A stretch of 64,000 bases of DNA. Origin: a virus. The notes beneath the pieces were generated by a model that was given only the letters and a program-made list of their open reading frames with translations, was not told the origin of the DNA and did not search any database. The position numbers and the translations under genes are program-made. This document shows positions 6,550-56,518 of the stretch, in pieces. The stretch spans positions 28,896-92,895 of the IMG/VR virus record IMGVR_UViG_3300010373_000003, one strand, 5' to 3'. Position 1 is the stretch's first letter, and the number at the start of each line of letters is the position of its first letter.

Positions 6550-7339
6550 GTTAGACAATGACTTTAATATAGATCATGGTGATTGGATACCTCGTGTTGG
6601 TGCGTGGATTATAGATGCTATGGGTCAGCTAAATGTTCTTCGTAAGAAACGTAGTAAAATAAAGCTAGATGTTCATAACTGTATAGCTTATTCTAATTGT
6701 CCTATTAATAGTCCTAATCTTATAGTTACTGATTCTAATGGTTGCCCAATTGTCAAACATAAATCTAATGCTAGTGGTTGTTGTTCTTCCTCTACGGGGG
6801 AGGTAACAAAGCTAGGTGATGTAACTCCCTCAACGGTAGATGCTATCTATAATCCTAATGCTGCTTATGTCCCAGATCATACTGTAGCTGAAACTGTCAA
6901 TGGTAGTAATAAACCTCCTAGATATAATATTGTTAACTATGATAACTCTGGAGGACAACCTAGAAATTATGTTCTATTAGATGATAACAAACTTGAATTA
7001 AACTTTAATACAAGTTGTGTTTATGTTGAAACTGATGTAGTTGAAACTGTATGGAGTAAAACCTATGAATGCGATATTCCTGTTGTTCCTAATGTTGGTA
7101 TTCTTATAGAAGCTATTGGTTTTTATTGTATGTATAAAATGTTAACTCGTGGATATAAACATCCTGTATTTAATCTTAATGCTAGTCAATATGGAACTAA
7201 TCCTTATTATGAGTGGAAGACTCTAAAACCTGAAGCTAAGAGAGCTGTTACTATTGATGCTCAGGGTAATATACTGGTTACTGATGGAGGTCTATTTAAA
7301 AGTTCATTCTTTATCACTACATTCCCCAATAGTAAATAG
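6506..7339 (+). CDS. Tail-hub-type structural protein carrying one copy of the dispersed motif
   Basis: 277 aa. The N-terminus (VEHIIAKLDNDFNIDHGDW) looks like a conserved structural domain. A Cys/Ser-rich linker around residues 90-105 includes SSSTGEV, which is encoded by dispersed-repeat copy 1, so the peptide was probably gained by insertion. The C-terminal half is globular. ATG 6506 overlaps the previous gene by 44 nt; a GTG at 6530 is the alternative start. It ends with TAG and is followed by a 123-nt gap before the 1486-aa gene. Function is inferred from position. Confidence 0.45.
   Translation: MLNNTSISVEHIIAKLDNDFNIDHGDWIPRVGAWIIDAMGQLNVLRKKRSKIKLDVHNCIAYSNCPINSPNLIVTDSNGCPIVKHKSNASGCCSSSTGEVTKLGDVTPSTVDAIYNPNAAYVPDHTVAETVNGSNKPPRYNIVNYDNSGGQPRNYVLLDDNKLELNFNTSCVYVETDVVETVWSKTYECDIPVVPNVGILIEAIGFYCMYKMLTRGYKHPVFNLNASQYGTNPYYEWKTLKPEAKRAVTIDAQGNILVTDGGLFKSSFFITTFPNSK
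6785..6804 (+). repeat. Dispersed GC-rich motif, copy 1 (forward)
   Basis: TCTTCCTCTACGGGGGAGGT matches the consensus. It is in frame and codes for SSSTGEV. About 20 nt downstream, CCTCAACGG (6828-6836) matches the core CCTCTACGG at 8 of 9 bases and could be a decayed partial copy or chance. Confidence 0.85.
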
Positions 7340-7462
7340 CCATTAATATCTCATATAATAGCAATTTAAAGCTGTATACTGGACGATATTAATTTAACTG
7401 TATAATAACGTATATCGACTTTAGATAGTCGCTTATATGAACTTAAAATAAGATGTAAGCAA
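7340..7462 (+). promoter_or_regulatory. Leader region of the 1486-aa gene with a hairpin
   Basis: This 123-nt noncoding gap holds CGACT/AGTCG (7416-7420 and 7427-7431) with a 6-nt loop, extendable by TATA/TATA arms across a small mismatch. CTGTATA occurs twice (near 7373 and 7399). No good match to TAnnTTTG is present. A promoter or 5' leader is plausible because the next gene is a major virion gene. Confidence 0.3.
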
Positions 7463-10400: not shown

Positions 10401-11923
10401 GAGTTGTATTTAACACTGCTAATAATAGAGTTTTTAGAATTAATAATCATGATCATTATTATAAGTTTGAGGTTCCAAATGATAAACCTCATACTTATCA
10501 GAATGATGTTCCTTTTCTAGCTTATTTACAATTACCTATATGTACTGATGTATTCTTTGAAAGTAAGTCTTATAAGAATAGTCCTGTAGGATTTATGTCT
10601 TTAGTTAAAGGTTCAGATGAGAACTCTAATAAGTTTGCTAAAGGTACTATGGTTACTCCTGTTAATAGTATTGATTTATTTGAAAATAGACAAGGTTCTG
10701 CTGATCAGTTTAATCCTAAGACTTATGTTAACTTTAGAGAAGATTTAGTTTCTGTTGAACAATTTGATAAGACTATTCGTAGATCTAATGTTATACAGAA
10801 TGAAAGTAGAGTTAATGGTTGGAGAACTTTCCCTATTGAAGGTTATAAAAATATAACTGAGAATAAAGGAAAGATTACTAATATAATTGGAATAGGTACT
10901 GTTCTACTTGCACATACTGAACATAGTATGTTTATGTTTGATACTGATAATACTCTTAAGACTGAAGGTAAAGATATTCAATTATTACAACCTGATGCTT
11001 TTGAAGTATCGTACAATGAAGTGTTTACTTCTGATAAAGGTTTTGGTGGTTTACAAGATGATAAATCATATATTGTTAATGACTTTGGTTATATATTTTA
11101 TAGTGATGATACTAATCGTATTTATCGGTTTGACGATAAGCAGTTAGATAACATGGACGAAGATATAATACAATGGCTTAAAAAATATAAACCTTTTAAT
11201 GTTAGGATGGCTAACGATAAAGAAAATAATCGTATACTTATGAAATTCGATTATCTTGTTACTGGACTAACTAGAAGTACTGTTATTAGTTATAATTATA
11301 ATGAGAAGAATTTTGTATCTCAACATCCTTATTACTTTGACGAAGCTTTTAATACTAAAGTTGGTTTATACTTACAATGCACTAATGATCATAATGGATG
11401 CTCTTTACATAATTTTGATTATAAAGGAGATGTTTATGGTAGATATGATAATATCAAAGGTACATTAGGTCAATCAATTGTTGCTCATTCTAAACTTAGT
11501 TTTATTATTAATGATTCTTATAGTATTGTTAAGTTCTTAGAGTATATTACTTATAAACTTACTAAGTATGCCGAGTATTCCGGTACTGATTTTACTAACT
11601 TGCCCGTAGAGGAATACAAGACTCCTTATGCTGGATATACACTTGCTGTATATAATAATAATGTTAATACTGGTGTATTAAATATAACTACTGACATTGA
11701 AGCAAACAAAAACATGTTTGATGTTATTGACAAACCTTATTGGGATTTAGGAGTTTGGAACTTTAGTTATCTTCGTAATAGAATAAGTGAACTAAATAAT
11801 GGAGTTAGTGATGATAATATAACTAGATTATTTGGTAACTATTTCATTGTTGAATTTGTATTTGATAACGAGGACGGTCGTAAGATTGATTTTGAAGAAT
11901 TAAATTATAATGTTTCTGAGTAA
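7463..11923 (+). CDS. Large tail-tip protein, muzzle-like
   Basis: 1486 aa, rich in Tyr, Asn, Ser and Asp, with beta-rich composition throughout and no transmembrane segment or enzyme motif. A single very long beta-rich protein just upstream of the cargo genes is the expected place and size for the crAss-like muzzle protein that closes the tail tip. A short peptide (NLPVEEY, near residue 1380) is encoded by dispersed-repeat copy 2. It ends 9 nt before the first cargo gene. The assignment rests on size, composition and gene order. Confidence 0.5.
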   Translation: MSVNTKLNLNKHPKDNDNLSLVNAQAVKISHDGSCITSEDSIKENSFIHNYLSAFYGTNPVIGYKIVGIIPCNNELVIVVKPSNTVDDADIFRYQEPINDNIEKMYCAYGGLGSPNRFKYQGGLIKGAFTYNVENSLVIAISEYGNSNIRIPLRTINLGNSDDPTVYNDKDLSNSKLYISPEVRLPSVNNLDYTAGSAYKGWYYMFIRYKINSVDYTQWYSIGPPIYIDTLEQYQIIRYPFGRDTKFAASALNDIVSPAWPDDGYGAGASDYFSNSSDIAKETFKVDLYFNKNIDYTKYQIGVICASKSYTKAFRTADIYLDKNYNEGFNVRIQKYVLDNKSLIEYNVSSFITDNGNYFNSKNVINYKNRLYISNYLEDNANNDDIPQSIIDSINVNLYTSYVRDYGLVYDTALIVNWVTGANQYDTYKFTEIPLARFLNISEETIVTISASGHTTKISKAGQFYITSGNSVPGYAYIQLREPGPLGSVSVTNYGVQPYSDYIYLAIADVNNNPQSNFTFDPVRSAINGGMMYTNTNIDFDSRKKQSCLIPGEVYNFNIHFTNKYSGATNGYRIPNNTKWIVNGEPNREIIPISFNLRVNSETVTYYAAMDVDSNVAREDFTVNERYSINVNGIRFFKQYNTFGTSPTLSSEVTSPSDLQSCVAAFKEFFSSYNSDKFSTTKWYQVSYGPGGDKFHLFINNNGDRLFKIPTIESFTGAWDGFPDEVAPFKQYNLHTLMRASFDNIEIPEGYDGFYISYEKFESQARATGLLTRNDFRTQDWIVKGGNTVQLGTRNSAKSDKMFFYSSTYDISDTIKLDYSIMRIEAINPFKKEDIPEWDYFQRNNTFNFLHDMNKPQVASYFEDVQRTYAMPEYKIAVADSVADDRMGVGTALQIKDSYNLFASYVTSAGIHDRLKVYRVTLLNTTRDIYMSDSKTLIRLGDVVYRSEGAPTNYKYSQYINSGYNGHYTYDGIPIYENAGVVFNTANNRVFRINNHDHYYKFEVPNDKPHTYQNDVPFLAYLQLPICTDVFFESKSYKNSPVGFMSLVKGSDENSNKFAKGTMVTPVNSIDLFENRQGSADQFNPKTYVNFREDLVSVEQFDKTIRRSNVIQNESRVNGWRTFPIEGYKNITENKGKITNIIGIGTVLLAHTEHSMFMFDTDNTLKTEGKDIQLLQPDAFEVSYNEVFTSDKGFGGLQDDKSYIVNDFGYIFYSDDTNRIYRFDDKQLDNMDEDIIQWLKKYKPFNVRMANDKENNRILMKFDYLVTGLTRSTVISYNYNEKNFVSQHPYYFDEAFNTKVGLYLQCTNDHNGCSLHNFDYKGDVYGRYDNIKGTLGQSIVAHSKLSFIINDSYSIVKFLEYITYKLTKYAEYSGTDFTNLPVEEYKTPYAGYTLAVYNNNVNTGVLNITTDIEANKNMFDVIDKPYWDLGVWNFSYLRNRISELNNGVSDDNITRLFGNYFIVEFVFDNEDGRKIDFEELNYNVSE
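11599..11614 (-). repeat. Dispersed GC-rich motif, copy 2 (reverse)
   Basis: CTTGCCCGTAGAGGAA is the reverse complement of the motif in its GCCC variant. It is read in frame as LPVEE within the 1486-aa gene. Confidence 0.85.
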
Positions 11924-16663: not shown

Positions 16664-19600
16664 ATGGATATTAATGACTTTTTAAATAACGGAGTTACGG
16701 TTAAGAACCCTAATTATAAGAAACCCACTAAGAGAGATCCTAGTGGGTCTCCTCGTTTTATACAATCTGGTGATTACAATGCAGCTGTTGATCGTGATAG
16801 TCGTATTGGTGGATTTCTTGCTGAAAATAGTTATGATCTAACAGGTCTTAACAATGACGAGAATAAGTATGCTGATTATGATGTCCGTATTAACCCAGTT
16901 AATACTAAAGATGAACTTGATCAACAACGTGCTAAGAACCAATCTGCTTGGGAACAAACAGGTAGACTTGTTACGCAAGCTGTAGGTAATGAAATAGTTC
17001 TAGGTACTGCTTTAGGATTATCCAATCTTGTAGATATGGGTGTTAATATTGGTAAAGAGGCTGGAAAAGATGATTATACTAATCCTTTTAGTACTTTCTT
17101 AGAAGGTAAACAAGATGAGATTAGAAAAGCTTTTGAGATATACCAAGAGAATCCTAATGAGACTTTTCAAGTTGGAGACTTTGGATGGTGGGCAGGTAAT
17201 GCTGTAAGTGTTGCTTCTACATTATCTATGCTTATACCTTCAATGGCAGTTACTAAAGGTTTAGGTGCAGCTGGTAAATTTGCTAAACTTGAAAGACTTA
17301 GTACTGGTATTGCTAAAGCAGCTAGTGGTGTAGGTCTAACAAAGAATACTGCTACATTAGCTAGAGCTATTAACTCTGGTGCTGAAATAGGTACCGCAGC
17401 GTTACTTAGTAGAACAATGGAAGGATATCTTGAAGCTAGAGGTGTTTATAAGGAAACTTATGATAAATCTTTAGGTAAACTTGAATCTATGACTGTTGAT
17501 GAGAAAGCTAAGCTTTTTAAGAATAATCCTCAGTTTGTTGGAATGTCTAATGAAGAAATGGCTAGTAATATGTCTAGTTTTTCTGCTGATGAAACCTTTA
17601 AGAATGATTATGCAATGTTACTATTTGATATTGCTCAATTTAAAGCTTTAGGTTCTATGTGGAAAGGTGTTGCTAATAAAGCAGTTAACTCTACTCTAAG
17701 AACAGCTAATAGAAATGCTATTGCTGGACTTGCTGATGATGGAGCAGCTGCTATTGGAAACATGGGATTCTTTGCTAAACGTGCTGAGATTATTAAACAT
17801 GCTATAAAGAATCCTATGAGTAGTCTTACAGCTATTCAACTTAGTGAAGGTCTTGAAGAAGGTTATCAAGGAGTTCAAACAGAGAAAGGTAAAGAGATTG
17901 CTGAAAAGATGCTTGATCCTAATTTTAATGCTAGAACTCTTGAAAGTTATCTTAAAGATGGTGCTATATGGGAACAAGCATTTTGGGGAGTAGTTGGAGG
18001 AATGGCTTTCCAATCTATAGGTACTGGTGTTGGTAATTTAGCTACAGCTGTTAAAGGTAAAGTTAATAAACGTACTATGTCTGAAGAAGATTATGCTCTT
18101 TCTCAAATGACTGATGAAAAGATCAGAGAACAAGAGATTGTAGGTCGTCAGGCTCGTATGCAAGACTTTACAGAGAGTATGCAGCTTCTTAATAATGGTA
18201 AGAATCCTTTTGGTTATAAGATTGATCCTGATACTAAACAACCTATTCTAGCAGACGGTAGTAAAGTCAATGAAGATGTTAGTCAAGAAGAAGCTGAATT
18301 GCTTAAGACTCAACTTACTAATGATTTTGTTACTAATATGGTATTAGATGCTACTGATAAAGGTAATTACGATCTATTCAAAGAATATGTTACTGATCAG
18401 AACTTTGATAAGTTCTTTCAAGATGCTGGACTAGAGTCTAACTCTGGTGATAAATCTTTTAGTAGAATGTTAGTTGATAAGATGGATCAAACATATGAAG
18501 AATACAATGGTGCTCTTTATGATGTTATGAATTCTATTAGTGTAGAGAATGAAAGTGTGGCTAAGATTGTGGCACGAAGTATTGCTAGAAGAAAACTACA
18601 AGTATCAGACTTATATAATAGTTCTGATGATCTAGCTAATCAAATAGCAACTAACGCAGATACTACTGATTATATAGATTATGAAGAGAATCAAAGAGTT
18701 AAATATGTAAAAGATCGTATAGCTGAAATAGATAAAAAAGAACAAGGTCTTCAAGAAATGTTAACTAATAAACAAATTAGTTCTCAAGCTGTAGATCAAA
18801 TTATTAAAGAAAATAATATTAGACGTAATCAACTTCTAGCATTTGCTTCTACTGGTAATATGTTTGGTAACCCTGATGTTATAAGCAATATCTTAAGTTC
18901 TAATATTAATGATGCTAATACTGGTGAATTCTTAGCAGAGTTTAATAAGTTCTTAGCAACTATTGATCAAGATGTTAAACCCGGTACTCCTAAGAAGTCT
19001 GTTCAAGATATTGTTAAAAAGAAGATTGAAGTAGATGATCATTTAGATTATATTGAGAAAACATTACCTACTACACAATCTAACTATCAAACAGAATATG
19101 ATGATGTTGCTAGAAATGTAGATAGACTTACTGTTGAAAGATATGATAAAGCTGTAGACATTGTAGGAGAATATATAGAATCTCAACCAGATCTAGATAC
19201 AGCTCATAACAATGTTATGACTAATAATGTTCCTGCTAATATAAAGGAACAATTAGATATACTTAAACTTGGACATCATAGTACTTCTAAATATACTAGT
19301 CAGATTAATTCTATATTCAGAGAAGTTAACAATGATAGAACAGCAGCTGCTGCTGAAGCTAGAAATGTTAATGTTGATAATACTGTTACTAATGATACTA
19401 CAGCTGAAAATGATATACTTGATATAGATGGTGTAGTTGCTGAAACTGACAATAGAGAATCTGTCACTGAGTCTTCCTCTACGGGGGAGGTTATACAATC
19501 AGATGTATCAAAACCGGCTGCTGTTGAAGAAGTAGTTAATCCTGAAACATTTATTGCTCCTTTTGACATAGTTGAAGAAGTTGCTTCTTTAGATAAAGCT

Positions 19601-22600
19601 ACTGAAAGTGTTATCAATGATCAAACTAATGATTTTATATTAGACAATGATGCAAGAGCTGTAGGTTTAGCAAGTAGTATTACTTTTAATCTATTTAAAA
19701 CTTCTCGTAATCTATTTGATAATCTAGAAGGTAAAGATGTTAATAGTTCTGAATTTAATAATATTGTTGATATAGTTGCTGATGATTTATTTACACAAGG
19801 TGTATCTAGAGGTTATACTAGACAAGCTGCTGTAGATGGTATTAGAATGGCAATGAATATGATACATCGTAGACTTAGTTCTAAGAATATTAGTGGTGCT
19901 GATATGTTTAAAGTATTAGCTGATCAGCTTGCTAATAAACAAAGAGTTGAAGTTGATAGTGAAGGTAAAGCTTCTACTACTACTCTTATTCCTGATAGTG
20001 AATTTAATCAAGTTATTGATCAGTTCATTGATAATTATATTCAAAATAGAGGAGTATATACTGTTAAAGGATTTAAGACTATTATTAATGTTGAAGATTT
20101 GTTTAGAGAACTATTAAATAATGATGGTATTACTTATGAGCAAGCTAAACATGTATTCTTTAATATAGCTGATTATATCAGAGCAAATAATCCTAAGTAT
20201 ATATTTATTAATAAGACTGATCTTAATAAGAATCTTAAGACTCCTAGTACTTTTTTTAATAATCTTATTAATAATAAATCAACTGTTGAAACAGTAGATA
20301 GTTATATGCATATAGCTGCTCCTTCTAATAAACCTGAAGGTTATGATAAAGCTGTAAATGAAGCTATTAATGGAGAACCAGTTGTTATTAGTTATTTTGA
20401 AGGAGAACGAGGTACTAGTAATAACTCTATTTCTATTAAAAGAAATGGTATTGAGATTGGTTATCTTGGTTCTGTTCAACCTAATCCTATTAATACTGGT
20501 TATAAATTAAAGAGACAGAATCAAGGTTTTGTTTATGATCTTGTTAATAACAATGGTAACATTGAAAGTAATTTAGATAAACTATTTATACCTCTTATTA
20601 ATAGAGAAACTACTAATTATTCTTATTTAATGGATATTGCTTATAAGCAATTTGCTTATGAAAGTGCTATTAAAAATGGATCTTCTAGTCAAGATATTAC
20701 TTCTGATGAAGTGAGAGACATTGTACATAATGCTATGATTAAATCATTAGTTGCTTCAGGAGATATTAAAATACCTGCTGATAAGATTACTGATAAGATG
20801 AAGGCTAAGTATATACTTAATCAAATTAATAACATTATCTTTTATGATAATGCTGCGATTACTACTCCTTTAATATTAGAGAGTTATGCTTATTGGAAGT
20901 CTTCTACTTTTAATAATTATGTTAATACTCATAAGATACAACAAGGTCTTGATACTAACAAAAAGATTAATACTAAGCTTGTAAATGTTGCTACTGGTAA
21001 AGTATTATTAGATAATACTAATCATAATATTTCTGATATAGGTTTTACTTATGAACAAAACCCTATTATGATAGTAGATGCTAATGGTAATATTATCAAT
21101 GAAAAAGCTAATACTAGTTATAGCAATGTAGCTGGATTTGAAGTAGGCACTATGGGTATGTTGATTACTGATAATCCTAGTGCTCCTATTATAGCTTTAT
21201 TTACAGAATCTAATAATGTTTCTAGTAATAAAGAACTTGCTAATAGAGTATATTCTGAACTTACAGATTTACTTACAGGTTTTCAAAATAGAGAAGTTAG
21301 TTTTGATAAACTAGCTACTTCATTAGGAGATATGTTTAGTGGTCCGGGTATTAGAAGTAATAATCTATTTAGTGGTTATAGTGTTATTAAAACTAATGAT
21401 AGAATAGCTCTTAATATACAAGGTCGTAAAGGAGAGTATAATCTTATTGTTCATAAGTTTGAAAAAGGTTCTAATACAGAAGGAACTGGTATTACTCATA
21501 TACCTAATGGTGATAAGAGTAAAGCTAATAGTTCTGTTACTACTAGTAAATCTTTTAATAATGCTATTGCTAAAGAGATTGTTTCTAATCTTACTTTTAA
21601 TAAAACATTCTATGCTATTAACAATAAGAATGTTGATAATGATAAATCTAATCAATATCTGTATAAAGAAGGAGGTAAACTAATAATTGAAATAGGAGGT
21701 AAGAAAGATAGTTATAATAGTTTTGGTCAGTTTGTTTTGACTAATAATGCTTTTAAGACTAATCAAGGTAAAAATAAAGATGGTGGTTTCTTTGACACAA
21801 CTGATGCTGTTAAGTCACTTTACATCAATACTGCAATCATTACCTCGCCCGTAGAGGAAACACCATTGACAGATCGTAATAGAACTGCTTCTGATGTTAT
21901 TAAATCAGCTACTAAGACTGAGAGTGTTAATACTTCTGAAATACTAAGTTTAGCAGGAGTTGAAGAAGATAAGATTGCTGTTCTTACTGGTACTAATCAG
22001 TTTGGTATAGAACTTATTCCTAAGGAATCGTACTTTGATAATCGTGCTACTAAAGCTGAAGCTTATTATAGTAAAGGTAAAATGTACTTTACTAATAAAG
22101 GTGCTAATAATATTAGAAGAAGTCCTAATAACCTTATGAGACTTCTTATTCATGAAAATCTTCATGCTAAGTTTGAAGAACAAGGTTTGTTTCAACAAGC
22201 TGGTATTGTAGATGATCTTATGAATACTTATAATAGTTTTATTGAAGCTGTTAATAATGATACTACAAGTGCTGAAGTTAAAGTTATTAAAAATTGGATT
22301 GAAACTAATAAATTTAATCCTATTGATTATATTAGTACTTTATCTGTCGAACAACAAAGAGCATGGATTAATCGTAGTGATGCTGATAAAGCTGCTCAAT
22401 TTGCTGAAGAATGGTTAGTTGAAAGTCTTACTCAACCTTCTATTATTAGATATCTTAATAATACTATTTATACTGGAGGAGATGTTTCTGTTGAAGGAAT
22501 TGATAATAGTGCTAAGACTATATGGCAACGTATTATAGATGTTCTATTAAAATTATTTGGTAGAAATAGTGGAAATATAAAAAATAATACTATATTAGCA

Positions 22601-23082: not shown

Positions 23083-23136
23083 ATGTTTATGTTGTTGATT
23101 ATATTGCCAAAACTTATAATAACAATAAAAGAATGA
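23083..23136 (+). CDS. Putative 17-codon leader ORF coupled to the polymerase gene
   Basis: ATG at 23083 reads MFMLLIILPKLIITIKE and stops at TGA 23134-23136, which overlaps the ATG of the 4532-aa gene as ATGA. Its own ATG overlaps a TAA (TAATG) that ends the in-frame extension of the 2112-aa ORF past its TAG. The arrangement suits termination-reinitiation. No homology is visible, and chance in AT-rich DNA is quite possible. Confidence 0.3.
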   Translation: MFMLLIILPKLIITIKE

Positions 23137-26100: not shown

Positions 26101-29100
26101 AAAGTAATACTCATAATCTAATAGATCGTGCTCACTATAATGGTGATAGTGTTGTAAAAGATGGAGTACTTACTGGTAATTTCTTTAACTTTATTAGACT
26201 ATTTGAAACACAAGGTTATAAAGCTAATGAAGAGATTAAGAATGCTTTCTTCCTCTACGGGGGAGATACAGCTAACGGTATTGATCCACTGCTCGTTAAG
26301 AATAAGAAAGGTGATCTAACTCTTAATATTAATAGAAAAGATCTTATTGCTATTAATAATAATCATATAGAGCTTAGTATATCTGATAATAACTTAGAAG
26401 TTATTGATTCTGTTGTTGAGAATTGGCTTAATAATTATTATAATGAAGTACTAGATAAAACTTCTCAGTTTAATACTATTATTGAAGATAGATATTCTAA
26501 TAATGATATTGTTGACTATGCTGTTAACAATGCTATTATGGAAATGAACTTTGATGATGTGTTTGAAGGTGATAGTAAGTTCTATAAAGGACCTCAGGAT
26601 TTCCTTAAGAGAGCAAAAGAAGTTCAAGCTGCTGGTAAAGCTTATACTGGTTTTAATATTAATGAAGCTATTGGTGGTCCAGTTCATCCTATTAAAGATG
26701 CAAGTGGTGGTGAGATTCCTATAATGGTTAATGGAGTTGAAGTTGCTAAGGCTAGAAATGGTTTTAAAGGTGTTACTATTTATAATACCGTTAGACCTTC
26801 TCAAAGTGCTGGTCAAATAAAACAAGAACTTGTAGGTATACTTACTCCTAGTGTTGGTAAGACTGAAGCTAATCGTATTGCTACTGAAATATCTCAAGGT
26901 TATTTTGATTCTACTAAAGTCAATGATGCTCAATCCTATATTACTCTTGATGAGTTTATAGCTAGACGTCATGCAGATGGTACATTGAATGATTATCAAG
27001 ATTTACTTGCTCAATTAACTGATGATAAAATCAGTGTTGGAGATATGAATCTTAAAGGTATTAATGCTCGTATTCAAGTACAGAAGAACTTCTATTTTGA
27101 TAAACAGTTTGATGATAATACTGGAACCTTTTATCCTAGACAGATTAAGAATGCTGAATTTGTTCTTATTCCTAAGTTGATTAAAGGTACTGATCTTGAA
27201 ACTCTTTATAACATAATGAAAGCTAATGGTGTTGACCAAGTTAATACTGTTGAAGCTTCTAAAGCTGCTAAAAAGAATATACTTACTTTTTGGGATAATC
27301 AAGGTGTTGCTAATGCTGAAGCGTTTGATGCTAGTCTTAAAGCTGATAACAATATAGCTATTGAAGACTACTACTATCAGTATCTTTATAAACAACAAGA
27401 TGTTGCTGATCATATGGTTAATGAGAAGAACAAAGCTGGTATTCAAATCATGAAGAAAATCATTGATAATGCTAATGCTGAAGTTCAAGGAGATATTGAT
27501 AATTTCTTTAATAGCTATGTTGCTAATATTAAAGATGACTTTAATATGCTTCTTAATCGTATGGGTTGGAGAGTTGAAAATGGTTCTTTAGTTGATAGTA
27601 GTGGTAAGACTAATGCTGATGGTAAGAATGTACTTCAATTTGAAGATTTTTATAAGAAAGCACGTGTTGAGGCTCAACGTCTTGGTATGGATTCTAACTT
27701 TATAGAATATCTTACTCCTGATCAGTTTGGTTCTCCTGTTATGCCTAACTATATGAACAATGTCTCTTCTAAGTTAGAAAGTATTGCTCAAAGTATATTT
27801 AATAATGGTGTTACTAGACAGACTCTTCCTGGATGGCATGCTGCTCAGGTTACTAGTGTTGGACATGGTGTTCCATCATTAGGAGAAGATGGTGTATGGA
27901 GAACTCTTAAGTATCACCCTCAAGTTACTAGAGAAGATGGTACAGTAGTTCAAGAAGCTTATGCTGAAGTTATGCTTCCTAGATGGAGTACTTTAATTCC
28001 TAAAGATTATGATATTTCTAAGTTAGAATCTGAAGGTATTGATATTCATTTAGGTTATCGTATTCCTACTGAAGGTAAACAATCTATTAGTAATCTAAAA
28101 GTTGTTGCTTTCTTAGATGAGGTTTATGGTTCTACTATTATGGTTCCTGATGAATGGGTAACTCAAACAGGTAGTGACTTTGACGTTGATAGTGTTTATG
28201 GTATTTCTCATGAAATATATAAAGACAGAGAGGGTACTATTAAGAAAGTACAGTTTGATAACTCTACAGAAGTTAAAGATGTTGAACGTAGATATGTTAA
28301 TTATATTAATGGAGCTATAGAACATCGTGTAGATAAAGATATTATACCTGATGAGTTTATAACTGATAAAGTTAATGAAGCTAGAGATCAAATTAAAGAC
28401 TTAGATATTGTTAGAAAAGAATCTAAATATCTTGGTGAATTGATTTCTAATCATGGTAGTATTTATAGACAACTTCCTACTGAGGTTCAAGATCAAGTTA
28501 AATCTATTAATAGAAGATTTAGAACTGGTAATATATATGATAGATACAATGCTTTAGCTGCTACATTTGAAGTACTATCTTCTCAGGAAACTGGAGAACT
28601 TAAAGATGTTTATGAAGAATTTGGTTCTTATAGTGAGGCTATTGCTAATGCTTATGAATATATTAAAAGTATAGATACTGATTCTATTCCTAAGTTTAAT
28701 AAGTCTGAAGTTATTAAAGGTATATTTGAAAATGCTCGTATTGAGTATTTAAATAAAGTTAAGAAAGCTGCTAAAGCTTCTAATCTTGTTACTTATGAAG
28801 AGTTTGCTAATTGGTCTATAGAAGATCAGAATAGTCGTAAGGCTCGTAATAATAGGATATTAGATAGTATGATTAATGTTATGAATAATAGTAATTCTCG
28901 TGAAGAGAACTATTCTCGTAGTAATTTTGATGATCTATCTAATGCTATGAAGAAAATGAATGCTCTTCGTGGTGCTTCCTCTATTGTTCGTAGTGCTTAT
29001 AATCCTTTAGATCAAGTTGATTTTATGGAGAATGCTATGAGTGGTGCTACTCTTAAAGCTTTCTCTGTTACTAGAGATACTTTTAATTCTGTTAATAACT

Positions 29101-32100
29101 ATACAAAATCTAAACTAGGTGAAGGTCATGAAATTAAAGTTGAGTATGATCTTAATCAATATGATATTAAACATTTAAATAGCGCTTATAATGGTGTACA
29201 ACTTGATAAATCTCGTAATGTGGCTATTGTTATGCATAATAGCTTGGCTAATAGTAATAACAACAGGAACGTTGTTGGTAAAATCCTTACAGTTTATAGT
29301 TCTCAAACTACAGCTCATATTCTAGATGCTGTTAAAGAAGGTACTATTTTCAATGAGAATGATTATACCTTTGGAACATTTAAAACTCTTATTGATGTAG
29401 GTATTGATTATGAAACTGCTATTGGTTTCTTAATGCAACCAGGAATTACTAAGATTGTAGATGCTTACTTCCAAAGTAAAAGTATTTATATTAATAGTAC
29501 TTCTAACCCTATTAATGTTGCTATTAAGTCTATAGCTACTGATCTAGGTATTACTATTGGAGGACGTGCTATTGATGACTATACCCCTGTTAAGAGTGTA
29601 GTACAAAGATTGAGTACTTACCCGAGATTGCAAATGGCGTATAGACAGCTGTTTGCAGCTAATCTAGGATATAATAATACTATTGACGTACAATCACAAA
29701 ACCTTAATGGTTTAATGCTTCAGAACCGCTTAAAAGGGGTTGAAATAACTAATACTTTAACATTAACACTAGATCAACAACAGTATCAAAATGCTGCTTT
29801 TGATTTAGCTATGATTGCTAACTTTGATAAGTATCGTAAGACTACTCGTAATATTGAAGCTTTAGCTAGAGTTAGTAATCCTGATAGGTTTGGTGCTAAG
29901 CAAACAATTAGAGGAACTAGAGTTACTTTAAATAATATTGCTAAATATGCTACTGATCCTAATGATATAGTTGGTGAAACTATAATGGTTGGAAATAAGA
30001 ATATTATTCAATCTTTATACCCAGGTTTTAATACTAGAGAAGGTATAGATATTACTAATAGTTCTTATCCATATCTTGCTGCGTTTTTAAAGTTTGCTAC
30101 TCAACCTAGTGTTGAAGCTAATAGTCAGTTGTTTCCTACTGAAAGTAATAGTTATAATGCTATTACAGATACTGTTCAAGCTAGAATGGGTATTAATTTT
30201 ACTGATGAACAGTATAAAGAATATAAACAATATATGATTTCTAATGTTTATGCTGGTGTTCCATTTTTAACATCACCTTTAACATTGAATGAATATGGTT
30301 TAATTACTTTAGATAATGTAGCTATTGAAGCTGAAGTTAATTTAAATAATCAATATTGGGATGTTGAACGTTCTAGAATATTTGGTTACGATGTTACCCA
30401 AAGTGGCAATATTACTATTAAAGATATTAATAATCCTAATGAGGAAGAAGTATTTAATTTTAATCAACTTACTCCTGCTCAGAAAGTTATATGGATTCAA
30501 CGTAATTTTAATGAAGGTAGAGGTGTATTTGATTTCTTAGATGTTAATACTTTTAATCAGTATGAGTTTAAGAATAAAGGATTTAGTAGTCAATCTATTA
30601 AATATAGTGATCAAATTGATGATATTGAAGAAGTGTATGTTGCTTTTAGAGATAGCTTCTTTAATAAGAATCCTTTAGTTAGACTTGCTACTATTGACTT
30701 AATTAAGTATTCTTTTGTTGCTGAAGGGTTTAAATTTAAACGTGGAAGTATTAGTAAAATTATTACTAATGATACGTTGTATTCTAATCTAGAAGATAAA
30801 GGTATTAATCTAATTGAAGCTATACAGCAACAATTTATGATTTATAATAATCCTCTTGAAGCTACTACTCAAAAGTTTATTGATAAGTTTATACGTAGTC
30901 ATAGTGAACTTGTTAAAGAAGTTTCTATTCCTAAAGGTAAAACTGATAAACAAGGTAATGAGAATATTGGTCGTAAGTTTAATAGACAAATACAAGGAGA
31001 GAATATAGTTTTTATTCCTTTTGCTGAGTCTACTAAAGAGTTACTAGAACATCTTAACATTATTGAAGATAGTCCTAAAGGTTATGTTAGAATTGGTAGA
31101 TATATCAATGATACTCAACGTAGAACTACTTTATATAAAGTTACTAATACTAGACAAGGTGTTTATTTAACTCCTTTGAATATACTTGAACGTAATGAGA
31201 CTTCTGAGTATTCAGTTAATGCTAAAAATAACTTATATAAAGCTACTGAATATTATGATGCTATAATTAATTTATCTGTAGATAATGGAGTTCCTGTTAA
31301 TGAGTTACTTAAAGATGGTAAAACTGTTGAACAACTTAATATTCTTAAAGATCAGTTTACTATAACTCCTCATAAGTCTAAACATATAATTGAAAGTGTT
31401 GAAAACACTAATGAAGTTATTAGAGTTATGCAGTATGGTACTAATATTGAGCAAGCTGAGACTGCTAAGTTTGTATCTGACATTGTAGATTACATAACTT
31501 CCCCTGTAGAGGAAGCAGGTAACTATGGCGTTATTAAAAATGATAATGGTTTTATTAATTCTCTTATCCCTCATGGTGTTTCTGTTATTCAGAACATACC
31601 TAATGGTGAAGATATTATAACTGTTAAGATTACTAAACATACTAAGAAGAATGGTTTAAGTAAACAATTTGAATATGTACTTAAAGGAGACAAACGTGGA
31701 GATCTTGCTAAGGTTAAACCTGAAGAAAGAAAGGCTTTACAGAACTCTATTGATGCTAAAAGTATTAGACCTACATTATATAAGATTGAAAGGGTTACCA
31801 GTGAACAAGAAAGAGAGAACTACGAAGAACTTAGAAAACAAGTAGAAGATCAAGCTGCTTCTCAAATGAATGCAGTTACTAATCTAATTGAAGACTTTGA
31901 TGTAGATGTTGTTTTCAATTATACTGAAACTGATAAGGTTGCTAAAGATATATTTAATGAACTTAATAAACGTGCTTTATCTAATGATGATAAACGTGCT
32001 GTTAAATTTAAGAAAGCTATGGATATAGCAGGTATAGATAGGACTAGTGCTAATTCTATACATGATAATAAGAGAAATATATATACTTCTGCTGCTAAGT

Positions 32101-37317: not shown

Positions 37318-37412
37318 CTTCCTCTACGGGGGAGGTACAGCTCTCTATTACTAGAGGTTCAATCAAGACGGTTAAGACGATTAAGATCATATAACCTTGC
37401 CCGTAGAGGAAG
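37318..37412. mobile_element. 95-bp MITE-like element bounded by dispersed-motif copies 7 and 8
   Basis: The left end CTTCCTCTACGGGGGAGGT (37318-37336) and the reverse complement of the right end, CTTCCTCTACGGGCAAGGT (37394-37412), agree at 17 of 19 bases. The 57 bp inside hold a small hairpin (CTCTA/TAGAG, 37343-37356) and three 9-bp near-repeats (TCAATCAAG, ACGGTTAAG, ACGATTAAG; 37359-37385). No convincing target duplication flanks it and there is no ORF of substance. It lies between two - strand genes. A non-autonomous element, an iteron-like site or a regulatory cassette are all possible. Confidence 0.5.
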
Positions 37413-46780: not shown

Positions 46781-47533
46781 TTAATAACATTTAAGCATAT
46801 GATTAGCAAAACCAACAGCTTTATAAAATAGCTGCATTTTAGTACCATTATTCTGAATAGGAAAAGTAGATTTAAAATCAATATCTTCACTATCATGTTT
46901 AGCAACTTGATCAGTACTTTCTCTTCTGATCTCAATGTCTCCCCCGTAGAGGATATGCTTTACTATAGCGTTGTTCTCATTCCTGTATCTTACATCAGGG
47001 ATAATACAAAGACCAGTAGTTTCAGCAATATCAGCAGCTCTATACATAGTAGAATTAATCCAAAGATTATTACCAAGTAGTTTTCTACCAATTTCAGTAC
47101 CAAAATATTGCATAAGAGTACGAAGCCTAATAACAGGAGTTTTACCCTTTCTTTCAATATCTTCAATAATATAATTTAAATTATATTTAACAGTAAGAGA
47201 TTCTATAGTAATACCTACATATTCACTAAAACTAGCTTCAGCTTCTGTAAGAAACCTACGCTGACTAAATGAATACCACTCTACATCTTTCTTATCTCTA
47301 TCGTCAAAATACTTACGAGGAATATTATAAATAATAGACAAACAATCCTTCATAGGATCAGCGAAATGAGTAATACGATGTTCATTAGTTAAATCCCATT
47401 TAACACGATGAGTTAACCAATCTGAATAATTAGCTTTAGCTACACCTTTATAAAAGATATAATTAAGCATAGAAGCAAAAGTATCTTTACCTGAATTAAG
47501 TTGTCCAGATATACCAACAATATAACTTTTCAT
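46781..47533 (-). CDS. Deoxynucleoside monophosphate kinase
   Basis: 250 aa. GISGQLNSGKDTFASML holds the P-loop (Gly10-Lys16-Asp-Thr). The later HFADPMKDCL and PVIRLRTLMQYFGTE segments fit T4 gp1-type dNMP kinases, which phosphorylate dNMPs for phage DNA synthesis. ILYGGDIE near residues 194-201 is encoded by repeat copy 9, in the C-terminal part between a beta-strand (CIIPDVRYRNE) and the next. The start overlaps the upstream stop as ATGA. Confidence 0.8.
   Translation of the reverse strand: MKSYIVGISGQLNSGKDTFASMLNYIFYKGVAKANYSDWLTHRVKWDLTNEHRITHFADPMKDCLSIIYNIPRKYFDDRDKKDVEWYSFSQRRFLTEAEASFSEYVGITIESLTVKYNLNYIIEDIERKGKTPVIRLRTLMQYFGTEIGRKLLGNNLWINSTMYRAADIAETTGLCIIPDVRYRNENNAIVKHILYGGDIEIRRESTDQVAKHDSEDIDFKSTFPIQNNGTKMQLFYKAVGFANHMLKCY
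46938..46953 (-). repeat. Dispersed GC-rich motif, copy 9 (reverse on +)
   Basis: TCTCCCCCGTAGAGGA on the + strand; read on the coding strand it gives ILYGGD in the dNMP kinase gene. Confidence 0.8.
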
Positions 47534-48377: not shown

Positions 48378-49598
48378 TTAATCCTCCAGTATAATAACAG
48401 TTTTAATGTGAAAAGGAACTTGTTCAACACCGCTTCTTTCTCCATACTCAACAAGAGCTTTTCTGTACATGTATTTATCTTTATTAGCAATAACACTACG
48501 TTGATAATCAAATGATCCATTAACACTAGCTTTAAAAGTAGCATTATTAATATCATTCTTAAGTACTAATAAAGGAAGATCTCTCTTTTCATCTTCAGGT
48601 ACAATATCAACTATAGTAAACTTACCATCAGTCATAGCTTTAAACTTCCACATAGCAGAATTACGTTTACCAAACTGATATTCATCATTAGGATTACGAC
48701 CAACAATGCCTTCAAATCCTAATTTAATAAACTTATTTCTAAGACTTCTAGCAGAACTATCTGAAGTACAAAGATAATCAGGAACTCTAACTAATCTTTC
48801 AGTATTATTAGAGTGGCTACCTTCTTTATTTAAATTAATAGCACAATATCCTATATGTTTATCAAGAGTAGATAGTCTAGCATTTTGAGTCATATTAGCA
48901 ACAGCTATATCATAACACCAGAACTGTAAAAGTTTATTCTTAGGATCTTTAGGGTCTTTAACAAGATGATTTATCTCATTAACAGCATGACCATAAAGAT
49001 ATACTTCTCCATCAAGAATATAATCTTCATTTATCATTAAGTTCAATAAATCAATAGGTAATACTTTAAGTAAATATTCTTCAAGATCACCTAGACTATC
49101 CCAATAGTTACCTTCACGAGATTGAAAGGTTAAAGCAATAGGTTTAAATAAATCACCTTCGTTATTCTTAGCACCAATACCACATCTAAGACCATTAATC
49201 TTAGGTTGAACTATATAAGAACTTTGTTTATTGAATATCTTATTATTCTTATTATCATACAGTTTAGCAAGCATATGAAGCATAGCACCAGTATGACTTT
49301 GTCTATCATAAGGCAGATAAGTATCAAGATAAGCTATTACTTGTGTTTCCTCTACGGGCAAGGTATTGCTATCAGCAACGTCAGCAAGTAACATATATCC
49401 ACTCTTACGTTTAGTATTAACCCGAGACTTTAATTCATCTTCAAGAGTTCTCTTAGTATGGATAATTTCAGAACTAATAGTTTTCCCTAATATCCCATAA
49501 TATAATTCTAAACAATAAGCAGAATTATTAACTCTAGCATACCATACAGTAGGTTGACCTGCATTATTTCTCCTATAAAGAGCTTTATTATAATCCAT
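48378..49598 (-). CDS. ATP-dependent DNA ligase
   Basis: 406 aa. PKINGLRCG (Lys133 as AMP acceptor, KxNGxR motif I), LDGEVYLYG (motif III), EGIVGRNP (motif IV) and WKFKAMTDGKF (motif V) define the nucleotidyltransferase core; an OB-fold follows. Seals nicks in phage DNA. The N-terminal ~110 residues are an added domain, and LPVEE at 80-84 within it is encoded by repeat copy 10. The start overlaps the preceding gene by 11 nt. Confidence 0.85.
   Translation of the reverse strand: MDYNKALYRRNNAGQPTVWYARVNNSAYCLELYYGILGKTISSEIIHTKRTLEDELKSRVNTKRKSGYMLLADVADSNTLPVEETQVIAYLDTYLPYDRQSHTGAMLHMLAKLYDNKNNKIFNKQSSYIVQPKINGLRCGIGAKNNEGDLFKPIALTFQSREGNYWDSLGDLEEYLLKVLPIDLLNLMINEDYILDGEVYLYGHAVNEINHLVKDPKDPKNKLLQFWCYDIAVANMTQNARLSTLDKHIGYCAINLNKEGSHSNNTERLVRVPDYLCTSDSSARSLRNKFIKLGFEGIVGRNPNDEYQFGKRNSAMWKFKAMTDGKFTIVDIVPEDEKRDLPLLVLKNDINNATFKASVNGSFDYQRSVIANKDKYMYRKALVEYGERSGVEQVPFHIKTVIILED
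49346..49364 (+). repeat. Dispersed GC-rich motif, copy 10 (forward on +)
   Basis: TTTCCTCTACGGGCAAGGT, the CAAGG variant, identical over 18 bases to the right end of the 95-bp element. On the coding strand it gives TLPVEE in the ligase. Confidence 0.85.
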
Positions 49599-50461: not shown

Positions 50462-50897
50462 GATAATTATCATTATAAACCATCACCTTATCAGGCTTAC
50501 CAAGAAGGCAATGATTATACTTTAACCAAGCAACAGGATCATTACAAGGTCCCCATTTAATAACCTTTTCTAATTTACCCATCTCATAATTATCAACTAG
50601 ACCAAATAGACCTTCTTCATAATTAAAATTAGAATAAATCAATCCACGATTATTAGTTTCTACAAGACCATATCTCTTAATAGAATCTATATCAGAAGCT
50701 TTATTAAAATCTAAATCTCCATAGAAATATATAGCAGACTTATCACTATACTTATCTAGTCTATCTTCTTCTTTTTGAGTAATAGCTCGCATATACACAT
50801 TAAGACCTCCTTTATTAGGACTATCAGAATGGACTAATATTACCTTCTTTCTTATCCCTAATAAGTTTACTGTATCGCCTAACAAAACTTGTTTCAT
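50436..50897 (-). CDS. Hypothetical protein overlapping the primase gene
   Basis: 153 aa. VILVHSDSPNKGGLNVYMRA and IKWGPCNDPVAWLKYNHCL are distinctive but not recognised. Its start overlaps the primase 3' end by 74 nt, unusually long for this genome; a later start would cut into what looks like its first beta-strands. Confidence 0.45.
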   Translation of the reverse strand: MKQVLLGDTVNLLGIRKKVILVHSDSPNKGGLNVYMRAITQKEEDRLDKYSDKSAIYFYGDLDFNKASDIDSIKRYGLVETNNRGLIYSNFNYEEGLFGLVDNYEMGKLEKVIKWGPCNDPVAWLKYNHCLLGKPDKVMVYNDNYHDFFIGRR

Positions 50898-52029
50898 ATT
50901 CTTTTATATTAGTAGTTATATTAATAATAGGATCAACGATCCCTTTAATTCCTTTTTTTTCTCTCCACTCGGAGAAGTCTTTTGCACCATCTTTAACAGG
51001 TATAAGAACAGGCATTATAATAAAGTTGTTACGAAGCCATATAGTCTGCATCTTTCCAACTCTATCATTATCCATAAGAGATAGCATAATACCTCCTTTT
51101 TTTAGTTTACCATGTAACCAATCATATTCACTCTGCCTAAGTTTATAAGTTTCATGAGGTAGATTGATAACGCCGATGTTGACTTTAATGGCTCCCCCGT
51201 AGAGGAAGTTAATCTCTTTAATAGCTGCTTTTATAGCAACTCTATCTTTAGTAGACTTAGTAATAACAATTATATCATACTCATCTTGATTCAATGTATA
51301 AATACCTTCAAGATGATTACAATTAGTTATAAATCTAGTAAAACCTTTTTCACGTTTAGGAAAATAAAGTTTAATATTATAAAGTCCATTACGATCTTGA
51401 CCAAGTAAATAAGCATAACAAGGGTCAGTAGGATTATAATAATATTTAGGATCAGGATTAACATTTCTATTAATATAGTACTGATCTATAGGATATATAA
51501 ATTCAATATTTAACAAATGAGGACTAACACCTATACGTTTCCAATCATTAATATCATTATTATTCCATTCTCGAATAACCAATTCAATATTAGGTTTAGT
51601 ATTACGTAAATTAACAATAGCAGTGTTTATATCTGTAATAAGATTAATATCTTTTTCTTGTCCATAAAATATATCTTTAAACATAAACGTGATATGTCTA
51701 AGAACTTTAAGGAAATCTTCTTTATTGGATATATTAATAGGTCTATTATAAGTAGTAGTCATAACTAATGCTACAAGATCAAAACAGTCACCCCAGAAAT
51801 ATCCAGCAAAGTCTTTAAATTTAAGTCTATCCTGAGTATATTTAAACCCACAAGTAGGATTAATATCATATCTAATAGGAGAATGTATAAAGTCTCCAGT
51901 ATCAATACAATGTTGAACTATAGCATCAGAAAGATTTAAATAAGTACTAAAAATACTAACTTGACTTACTTTACTAAGAATATATTTTTTATTAAGAGTT
52001 CCAGTATTAATATTTCTAGCCATTGGCAA
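50824..52029 (-). CDS. DnaG-type primase with Toprim domain
   Basis: 401 aa. The N-terminus (SPIRYDINPTCGFKYTQDRL and a later FAGYFWGDCFDLVALV) resembles the primase zinc/CHC2 region although only scattered Cys remain. The Toprim domain shows YDIIVITKSTKDRVAIKAA (~255) in place of the usual EG motif and SLMDNDRVGKM (~316) as DxD. It synthesises replication primers. INFLYGGAIK between these motifs is encoded by repeat copy 11. It is followed by genes overlapping its end and preceded by the SSB terminator. Confidence 0.75.
   Translation of the reverse strand: MPMARNINTGTLNKKYILSKVSQVSIFSTYLNLSDAIVQHCIDTGDFIHSPIRYDINPTCGFKYTQDRLKFKDFAGYFWGDCFDLVALVMTTTYNRPINISNKEDFLKVLRHITFMFKDIFYGQEKDINLITDINTAIVNLRNTKPNIELVIREWNNNDINDWKRIGVSPHLLNIEFIYPIDQYYINRNVNPDPKYYYNPTDPCYAYLLGQDRNGLYNIKLYFPKREKGFTRFITNCNHLEGIYTLNQDEYDIIVITKSTKDRVAIKAAIKEINFLYGGAIKVNIGVINLPHETYKLRQSEYDWLHGKLKKGGIMLSLMDNDRVGKMQTIWLRNNFIIMPVLIPVKDGAKDFSEWREKKGIKGIVDPIINITTNIKEYETSFVRRYSKLIRDKKEGNISPF
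51191..51210 (-). repeat. Dispersed GC-rich motif, copy 11 (reverse on +)
   Basis: GCTCCCCCGTAGAGGAAGTT on the + strand; the coding strand reads NFLYGGA within the primase Toprim region. Confidence 0.85.
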
Positions 52030-55051: not shown

Positions 55052-55102
55052 ATTTCAAAGTACTAGATATTTGTTATCTTTAACAATAGTACACTTTATT
55101 AT

Positions 55103-55129
55103 TAACAGTACCAAATATTTTCACTGTTA
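55103..55129. promoter_or_regulatory. 7-bp inverted repeat upstream of the recT-like gene
   Basis: TAACAGT (55103-55109) and ACTGTTA (55123-55129) are symmetric around 13 bp in the 81-nt gap between the SNF2-like and RecT-like genes. No U-tract follows on the - strand, so an operator or leader hairpin is more likely than a terminator. Confidence 0.35.
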
Positions 55130-55132
55130 TTT

Positions 55133-56518
55133 TTATAGTACTACTGCATCATTATCATTATTGTAATCAATTTCGTCCTCATCATCAGGTATAACTTTAA
55201 TCAATGATGACTCCTTTTGATTACTAAGGTGTTTGTTCTCAATTGTACCTCTACAATAAACCTTATAATTAATCGTTGGTACACTATTAAATGTAACATC
55301 AGTAAAACGCGTCTTAAAAGCAATAATGTCATCTACAAAAGGTGAGGTGAAAATCACTAAATCAATAGCTGTTTTCAGCTTCACATTAGAACTACTTTTG
55401 ATCGACAATACATTGACTTGCTTTGAGTTAAACGCTGTCAGATTCATTGTACTGATCGACTGGGCGCCTACTATTTTAGGTTGACCTTTACTAGCACCAC
55501 TCTTAACAAGAACAGGTTCATTAGTAGCACTATCAATAAGTATAGAGCTTTCTATATTATCATGATAGTCAGCACATTTAAGATCAGTAAATTCATTTAG
55601 GTATTTAGTAACCTTAGAAGCAAATTCTCCACGTTTAGACACAATAAGTATTTGCATTGTAGAATGAAAAGTACATATAGCAAGTATACTATGTAGCTTT
55701 GCTTCATTATCAGTAACTAGATCTCTTCTCTGTTTAGTAATAGTAAAGAAATTATTAGCTCTCTCAAATAGATTATTAGGATTATAAATATCATCAATCT
55801 TCTTATTCCATTCAATAGAAGTATTAAGTTCAGAACTCCAACCATTATTCGCAGCTATTTCTTCACGAAATTGAACAGCACTAATGTTTAGTTTAGAATC
55901 ACCATATTTACATTTATCAATGATACTAATATCACCAAATATAGAAACAGATGTAGCAATATATTCATTATACTTTTCGTATAACTCATGATCTTCAGCC
56001 GATAGACTGATTGCAATCCTGCGTTCCTCTACGGGGGAGTAAATGTTATCTGTACGAACAGAATTGTTAGATACAGTAACATGGATGTTAGGTAATATAC
56101 TCCTAACAGAAGTAATATAATTAGAATCCATTATATTCTTAGTAAATATAGAAAGTATAAACTTTCCTTGTCTACTTAAGAAATTAATAAGATCAAGATT
56201 ATCATTAAGACCTACTGCAATGATTAGTTTATAATCATATAAGTAAGAAGTTTTAACATAATCAGCACTTAATATTGTAGTATTATATCCAGCATTAGGT
56301 TTACTAGCTAAAGCATTAATAATAGCAGTTCTAGTTTTAAATGAATCTACAACTATGAATACTTTCACACCGTGAGACTTAATATAAAACTGATCTATAA
56401 GTTTAATAATTAGATCTGCAAAATCAATAGGATGAAAACAATAAACACTTGCTCTACCTCTATTAGCTTGAAATCCATTAATAACTTCTTTAACATACTT
56501 ATCTTGATTAGTTTTCAT
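55133..56518 (-). CDS. SNF2/SF2-helicase-like protein lacking the Walker motifs
   Basis: 461 aa from the ATG at 56516-56518, which overlaps polB by 11 nt. VKVFIVVDSFKTRTAIINAL resembles motif Ia, QILIVSKRGEFASKVTKYLN motif IV, and the region with AIDLVIFTSPFVDDIIAFK and a late Arg (FTDVTFNS) motifs V-VI of SNF2-type helicases that sit next to PolB in crAss-like phages. The expected GxGKT and DExx are not seen, so ATPase activity is doubtful. YSPVEERR near residue 160 is encoded by repeat copy 12. The C-terminus is strongly acidic. Confidence 0.5.
   Translation of the reverse strand: MKTNQDKYVKEVINGFQANRGRASVYCFHPIDFADLIIKLIDQFYIKSHGVKVFIVVDSFKTRTAIINALASKPNAGYNTTILSADYVKTSYLYDYKLIIAVGLNDNLDLINFLSRQGKFILSIFTKNIMDSNYITSVRSILPNIHVTVSNNSVRTDNIYSPVEERRIAISLSAEDHELYEKYNEYIATSVSIFGDISIIDKCKYGDSKLNISAVQFREEIAANNGWSSELNTSIEWNKKIDDIYNPNNLFERANNFFTITKQRRDLVTDNEAKLHSILAICTFHSTMQILIVSKRGEFASKVTKYLNEFTDLKCADYHDNIESSILIDSATNEPVLVKSGASKGQPKIVGAQSISTMNLTAFNSKQVNVLSIKSSSNVKLKTAIDLVIFTSPFVDDIIAFKTRFTDVTFNSVPTINYKVYCRGTIENKHLSNQKESSLIKVIPDDEDEIDYNNDNDAVVL
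56023..56040 (+). repeat. Dispersed GC-rich motif, copy 12 (forward on +)
   Basis: GTTCCTCTACGGGGGAGT; the coding strand reads YSPVEE in the SNF2-like gene. This is the only SPVEE-type copy with the full CCCCCG core. Confidence 0.85.

Follow-up and report, generated by a model that had tools for sequence, protein, structure and literature searches.

A dispersed, asymmetric DNA motif held at orthologous and evenly spaced sites in Intestiviridae phages

The crAssphage family is among the commonest of human-gut viruses. Here we describe a short DNA motif that recurs through the genes of a crAss-like phage, in a stretch of 64,000 nucleotides (the window: bases 28896–92895 of a 92,895-base IMG/VR virus record, here called G000). 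It is an asymmetric DNA motif of the Intestiviridae, held at many orthologous places, and most likely a strand-specific signal. Its asymmetry and the even spacing of copies on the same strand suggest that it acts in one orientation only, and we infer a reader protein, encoded by the phage, that recognizes it on one strand while the DNA is replicated or recombined. The motif may have a Chi-like role in processing the ends of circularly permuted genomes, to which we give a rough probability of 0.30.

Twelve copies of the motif in the window

A preliminary description, made from the window alone, had listed twelve copies of the motif. All were located, within 0–2 bases of the listed starts. Exactly 12 positions match the 12-mer CCTCTACGGGGG with at most two mismatches, far from the number expected in dinucleotide shuffles (mean 0.24, maximum 2); the 19-mer with at most three mismatches gave 10 matches in the window and none in shuffled sequence. 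The core, ~10 bp long, is CCTCTACGGG (CCTCTACAGG in one window copy) and is usually followed by [GC][GA]AGGT. Conservation extends over 15–19 bp, and weaker positions reach out to ~+25. As had been claimed, ten copies lie inside open reading frames (ORFs), in various frames and on both strands; the other two lie in a gap at 37.3–37.4 kb. Strand switches between neighboring copies at 10 of 11 steps. The sites are given below in window coordinates, with orthologous sites in two further IMG/VR records (G001 and G005) or in the 14-genome set defined in the next section.

Site 1, 6786..6804, plus strand: ORF 6506–7339 (277 amino acids), sense, SSTGEV; exact 19-mer; orthologous sites in G001 and G005
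Site 2, 11597..11615, minus strand: ORF 7463–11923 (1486 amino acids), antisense, LPVEE; 12-mer with 2 mismatches; orthologous sites in G001 and G005
Site 3, 19473..19491, plus strand: ORF 16664–23002 (2112 amino acids), sense, SSTGEV; exact 19-mer
Site 4, 21842..21860, minus strand: ORF 16664–23002, antisense, SPVEE; 2 mismatches; no orthologous site in G005
Site 5, 26249..26267, plus strand: ORF 23133–36731 (4532 amino acids, RNA polymerase-like), sense, FLYGG; 1 mismatch; orthologous site in G001, not in G005
Site 6, 31497..31515, minus strand: ORF 23133–36731, antisense, SPVEE; core CCTCTACAGG; 2 mismatches; no orthologous site in G001 or G005
Site 7, 37318..37336, plus strand: intergenic; exact 19-mer; forms with site 8 a tight inverted (convergent) pair close to the gene-strand switch
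Site 8, 37394..37412, minus strand: intergenic; 2 mismatches; second half of the site 7 pair
Site 9, 46937..46955, minus strand: ORF 46781–47533 (deoxynucleoside monophosphate kinase), sense, ILYGG; 12-mer exact; orthologous site in G001
Site 10, 49346..49364, plus strand: ORF 48378–49598 (ATP-dependent ligase), antisense, LPVEE; 3 mismatches; ligase-gene site in 7 of 13 other genomes, including p-crAssphage
Site 11, 51190..51208, minus strand: ORF 50824–52029 (primase), sense, FLYGG; 2 mismatches; orthologous site in 13 of 14 genomes
Site 12, 56023..56041, plus strand: ORF 55133–56575 (SNF2-like), antisense, IYSPVEE; 3 mismatches; orthologous site in 14 of 14 genomes

Gene labels proposed earlier from the translations are backed by matches to PF21448 (kinase), PF01068 (ATP ligase) and phrog_12622 (primase), and by a DNA match to an annotated RNA polymerase. 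The SNF2-like protein has no Pfam or PHROG match, and its label is backed by tblastn to annotated SWI2/SNF2 ATPases; a related-locus search with this protein returned no relative.

The motif is distributed across Intestiviridae

Site lists were made by a per-genome matrix scan. Its threshold, never below a floor of 11, was set one unit above the best match in the same genome reversed, and by construction no reversed-control match exceeds it. The 14-genome set comprises G000, G001, G005 and 11 named Crassvirales, with the fragments G002 and G003 excluded; statistics on 12 genera also exclude the near-duplicates cr107_1 and cr11_1. By protein similarity, G000, G001 and G005 are inferred to be Intestiviridae. 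The assignment of the window to a crAss-like phage in the preliminary description is sound, and copies of the motif occur in many Crassvirales genomes. Among IMG/VR records, 18 sites were found in the whole 92.9-kb G000, 25 in G001, 11 in G002, 15 in G003 and 41 in G005. Counts for the named genomes were 33 in p-crAssphage (BK010471), 35 each in cr3_1, cr110_1 and cr11_1, 31 in crAss002, 36 in cr107_1, 23 each in ctbg_1 and ctcc615, 24 in cr271_1, 29 in cr8_1 and 28 in Rudgehvirus. Four more p-crAssphage strains have 28, 30, 29 and 30 copies of the exact pattern.

An unbiased scan under a second-order Markov model gave a piece of the motif as the top over-represented 8-mer in all 14 Intestiviridae genomes; in fragment G003 such a piece ranks second. 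Nothing comparable was seen in the eight Steigviridae and Suoliviridae scanned (crAss001, DAC15, cr116_1, cr10_1, cr50_1, cr4_1, cr273_1 and ProJPt-Bp1; scans of crAss001, cr10_1 and cr116_1 left out the final 0.4–3 kb). A single, chance-like pattern match was found in cr4_1 (Suoliviridae). The literature searched, a partial set with most subscription papers outside it, held no description of the Intestiviridae motif, in keeping with the earlier remark that none was known for crAss-like phages.

Some other genomes have features of their own. IMG/VR records G004 and G006–G010 have one or two copies each; for G004 (IMGVR_UViG_3300028833_000116, 91,933 bases) a search for exact core copies gave just two. 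The Crevaviridae genome cr127_1 (MT774393) carries a dispersed GC-rich element of ~30 bp, TAATGGCCACAAGGGCGAGAGGTGTTCCGAA, at 11 sites on both strands. Some are inverted pairs, such as 28705–/28872+ and 42047–/42233+, and a spacing test on the 11 sites gave p 0.08. This element, with GGGCGAG in common with G000 variants, may be a distant counterpart of the Intestiviridae motif; a viral contig search with it gave no match. In the Steigviridae crAss001 and DAC15, 8-mers of the CTTCTGGAG and CTTCTGGTG types are over-represented ~4–5 fold, through a codon effect or another signal.

Sites are orthologous, and DNA rather than peptide is kept

All-against-all protein alignments of the 14 genomes revealed a same-orientation site within 15 residues in 847 of 2245 alignable comparisons, versus 49 in the opposite orientation. 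The sites in the SNF2-like gene (site 12) and the primase gene (site 11) are examples, present in 14 and 13 genomes. At the primase site several genomes encode LYGG or a near variant of it; cr110_1, cr11_1, crAss002, cr107_1 and Rudgehvirus encode PLRG or PLQG. At the ligase site it is PVEE or a close form in most carriers, and PRRG in G005. Hence one site is read in different frames across genomes, which bears out the earlier proposal that selection acts on nucleic acid and not on the peptide. The opposite of peptides conserved without the motif was found: the motif is retained while the peptide changes between genomes. These alignments argue that it is the DNA, not the peptide, that is conserved. 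Among p-crAssphage strains (96–97% identical), core columns –2 to +5 differ by 0–1.5% and flanks by ~4%, with one free pyrimidine within the core columns differing by 10.7%.

One site appears to be new. Site 68501 of p-crAssphage (minus strand) is present in the reference only, four other strains having a near-match or less. The change consists of a 9-nt insertion plus substitutions, all inside ~30 bp, and a recent gain is the simplest reading. The site falls midway in an otherwise ~9 kb same-strand gap (63709 to 72722).

More generally, motif sites often lie at alignment gaps of homologous proteins. Calling the copies inserted, as was done earlier with a comparison to Rickettsia palindromic elements, is only partly right; the 9-nt insertion fits it too. 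A mobile mini-element is nonetheless scarcely credible. Copies are not scattered, many being orthologous in place and orientation, and on this ground the mobile-insertion reading was rejected. Nor is kinship with the Rickettsia elements supported: the motif is non-palindromic, with neither a conserved hairpin nor hairpin covariation.

Copies are evenly spaced on each strand

Spacing was analyzed with every genome treated as circular, including IMG/VR records whose ends are undefined. Same-strand gaps had coefficients of variation of 0.28–0.67 in the 12 genus representatives, versus ~0.9 for random placement, and the mean same-strand interval was 4–10 kb. Both extremes were scarce among 345 same-strand gaps: 7 fell below a quarter of the mean, where 76.3 were expected, and 11 exceeded twice the mean, where 46.7 were expected. 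Combined p-values of 1.8e-25 (versus random positions) and 3e-18 (versus permuted strand labels) are overstated, because shared orthologous sites make the genomes dependent. For G000 alone the corresponding values were 0.0006 and 0.02; for cr271_1 alone the test was not significant (p 0.08). The preliminary description mentioned neither this regularity nor the family-wide distribution.

The two strands carry about equal numbers of sites. Strand alternates at 237 of 333 steps, largely as a result of the even same-strand spacing. Pairs less than 150 bp apart in the 14 genomes comprised 33 opposite-strand pairs and a single same-strand pair, and opposite-strand copies lie 25–38 bp apart in several genomes. 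Such repulsion, confined to the same strand, is what would be seen if close direct copies were lost through repeat recombination and inverted copies were spared, making the spacing a mere by-product. By our estimate, the resulting dead zone could also yield the deficit of long gaps. Yet a dead zone of ~3 kb (estimated) seems long for slippage between copies of ~16 bp, and the existence of the sites would be left unexplained. We regard this account as very improbable.

Neither gene orientation nor a hairpin accounts for the sites

Of 416 sites, 178 are sense and 142 antisense (p 0.05, borderline) and 96 are intergenic, numbers that disfavor a role at the RNA level. A promoter or mRNA element was rejected in view of the sites' general indifference to gene strand. 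Intergenic sites make up 23% of the total, versus 6.7% for non-coding sequence, a three-fold excess. As RNA, the window consensus can form a C-UACG-G loop (–9.8 kcal/mol); variants tried fold more weakly. Across 15 site sets the mean DNA fold energy was –0.3 to –2.2, and in none did it beat column-permuted controls by more than ~1.5 standard deviations. A hairpin, whether RNA or DNA, was accordingly rejected as a conserved feature. Within the window there were no Rfam matches at the gathering threshold. A 9-bp periodicity downstream of sites, seen by eye, proved to be mostly coding period 3, with only G003 peaking near 9. Strand skew around sites gave isolated bins with |z| of 4–5 and no coherent step.

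Several local features accompany individual sites. By eye, a GC-rich hairpin begins just a few bases beyond many sites, most of them intergenic; its stem sequence varies among sites, often around GCGAAGC-like repeats. Examples are p-crAssphage (L153/L154) 6026, 28083, 28177, 44959, 58733, 93673 and 95869; crAss002 64747, 64780 and 89652; and cr3_1 44008 and 77149. A AGTATATATAAT box, possibly a promoter, lies 30–55 bases downstream of intergenic sites at G000 18465+, G001 51397–, G002 30200+, G003 12857– and cr3_1 86847+. In p-crAssphage, the two repL genes are each preceded, at a distance of a few hundred bases, by one tight divergent pair (28083–/28177+ and 95751–/95869+).

The motif drifts in concert within each genome

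Among genomes the core takes the versions TACGGGG, TATGGGG, TACAGGGG, TACGGGC and TTTTACGGGGCGG, and the drift is in step genome-wide. Each genome uses its own version at most sites: TTCCTCTACGGGGGAGGT in G000, ATCCTCYACGGGGRGT in p-crAssphage, TCCCTCTACGGGCRGAGT in G001, CTCCTYTAYGGGGGAA in crAss002, TCCTYTACAGGGG in Rudgehvirus and CTTTTACGGGGCGG in cr8_1. This concerted drift suggests one trans-acting reader per lineage. It would also be expected of a binding protein and its many asymmetric sites, so the motif could serve a dispersed, stoperator-like repressor or a DNA-organizing protein; p-crAssphage has two annotated IHF-like proteins, conserved in all 14 genomes. But the sites are mostly intragenic and largely indifferent to gene orientation, and binding of this kind gives no reason for the same-strand spacing. 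We consider it unlikely.

The reader does not seem to be borrowed from the host. Counts of the 11-mer CYTCTACGGGG in six Bacteroides/Phocaeicola genomes were 5, 0, 0, 2, 3 and 4, comparable to those of its reversed control (4, 6, 1, 0, 2 and 11). A 400-kb stretch of B. fragilis has TACGGGG 33 times (29.9 expected) and the variant TTACGGGG 14 times (7.9 expected). The idea that the motif is the host's own Chi was rejected for want of enrichment in Bacteroides/Phocaeicola DNA. For the same reason, the reader is probably phage-encoded.

A possible Chi-like role and its competitors

Two sources (PMC8042965, PMC10136315) give headful packaging and circular permutation as predictions for crAss002, and fixed terminal repeats for crAss001. 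If circularly permuted headful genomes were general in Intestiviridae, as the Chi-like model assumes, linear genome ends could fall anywhere. A phage RecD/Dda-like helicase, PD-(D/E)XK-type exonuclease, Gam-like protector and RecT annealing protein would then resect any end. With one correctly oriented stop or loading signal per few kb on each strand, resection would halt within a few kb, and recombination could follow without gene loss. Besides the predicted packaging and the gene co-occurrence described next, the observations counted in favor of the Chi-like role were the even same-strand spacing, with little regard to gene strand, the lack of host enrichment, the concerted drift and the position of p-crAssphage site 68501 in a long same-strand gap.

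Candidate readers were sought by gene co-occurrence, using the 31 p-crAssphage proteins whose orthologs occur in 12 or more of the 14 genomes and running their profiles on nine outgroup genomes. By BLAST, every one of the 14 motif-bearing genomes has orthologs of RecT (gp18 of p-crAssphage), the exonuclease (gp83; phrog_298; annotated PD-(D/E)XK in BK010471), the Gam-like protein, SNF2 (gp17) and ligase. Among the outgroups, their profiles match at most cr127_1, the genome with a dispersed GC-rich element of its own. The RecD/Dda-like helicase (gp14) profile matches cr127_1 and cr50_1. Primase matches 8/9 outgroups and PolB 5/9 (cr127_1 and four of five Suoliviridae); as both are present in motif-less genomes, neither tracks the motif. 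PolB had seemed to co-occur by Pfam (13/14 versus 0/9) and was dropped once the sensitive profile found it in those four motif-less Suoliviridae.

The distribution of the exonuclease-family protein is also as expected if the motif marked site-specific single-strand nicks in virion DNA, here on both strands. A system similar in style is described for phage tf, whose 9-bp asymmetric consensus occurs 14 times, at positions alike among relatives whose main consensus differs (PMC3517423). In T5, phiKMV-like phages and tf, however, the nicks lie on one strand only (PMC3517423), whereas the motif uses both about equally, and opposite-strand nicks 25–38 bp apart would approach double-strand breaks. 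Nicking is thus an improbable function.

Several considerations weigh against the Chi-like role. Seventeen of the 31 conserved proteins, several virion proteins included, show the same co-occurrence pattern, the exonuclease being one case among many. Moreover, the comparison amounts to a single phylogenetic contrast in which a missed profile match is no proof of absence, so that co-occurrence is weak evidence when it names candidate readers. Because it proved unspecific, we lowered our estimate for the Chi-like role from 0.35 to 0.30. The longest same-strand gap per strand is 6.5–38 kb, more than a plausible terminal redundancy. In p-crAssphage strains, C>T and G>A changes occur between sites at varying rates, with no consistent gradient by eye. 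Known Chi sites are shorter than the motif. One paper (PMC11652158) suggests that p-crAssphage may be a phage-plasmid, a state outside the Chi-like model.

Inverted pairs, which a Chi-like role does not predict, also count against it. Tight opposite-strand pairs number 25, versus 8.3 under a rotation null; paired sites are mostly intergenic (33/50, with 48/295 for single sites), so part of the excess may come from permissive places. For ten of the 33 tight pairs (a count that includes two near-duplicate genome pairs), a main gene-strand switch is no more than 1.2 kb away, such zones covering 3.7% of the sequence (p 2e-7). Such pairs would suit strand-specific priming, in which a phage primase, helicase loader or initiator starts synthesis at the site on one strand. 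Every strand would need a site per few kb, as the even spacing provides, and inverted pairs at strand switches would be bidirectional starts. A review calls the replication mode unknown (PMC10136315). On the other hand, the conserved hairpin that such sites usually have is unsupported here, and primase and PolB are found in motif-less genomes as well. RepL (PF05732), present in 1/16 records, was rejected as a general reader. Priming and nicking are the chief rivals of the Chi-like role; priming is a possible but doubtful explanation, and a Chi-like role in end processing or recombination fits slightly better.

Significance and comparison with known systems

With somewhat less than an even chance of being right, a broader view is that the Intestiviridae examined (and perhaps Crevaviridae, with another sequence) have a strand-specific signalling code of their own that spans the genome. 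The scattered sequence and a phage-encoded reader would have co-evolved so that, over most of both strands, a processing signal lies no more than a few kb away. If true, the element would form a new class in viral genome architecture, neither a host Chi, a set of one-strand nick sites, an origin nor an operator. A family-wide signal, conserved in orientation and regular in spacing, offers a direct experimental handle, with 31 predicted sites in cultured crAss002 (grown on Bacteroides xylanisolvens) and 28 in cultured Rudgehvirus (Rudgehvirus jaberico, on B. cellulosilyticus). It also reveals a DNA-level constraint that passes through coding sequence and dictates the peptide in loops of conserved enzymes.

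Like Chi sites, the recombination hotspots of RecBCD and AddAB, the motif is short, asymmetric, found on both strands and through genes; Chi is orientation-dependent and considered to bound end resection. The phage motif differs in being longer, family-specific, evenly spaced and not enriched in Bacteroides. It resembles the localized single-strand interruptions of T5, phiKMV-like phages and tf (PMC3517423) in its short, asymmetric consensus, in numbering roughly a dozen copies, and in keeping like positions among relatives while the consensus drifts; the known interruptions are confined to one strand, whereas the motif occupies both about equally, with close inverted pairs. The stoperators of cluster A mycobacteriophages similarly comprise 20–30 asymmetric dispersed copies of a motif that differs among lineages. 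Yet stoperators follow the direction of transcription and lie mostly in gaps, and the Intestiviridae motif largely ignores both, apart from its three-fold gap excess. Strand-specific use, as presumed here, is shared with the primosome assembly site of phiX174 and the G4-type and IncQ ssi initiation sites, but the known ones are hairpins in one or two copies. Finally, Rickettsia palindromic elements also place short DNA within open frames, in several frames; the Intestiviridae motif, by contrast, is no palindrome, bears no sign of mobility and has many of its copies at orthologous places.

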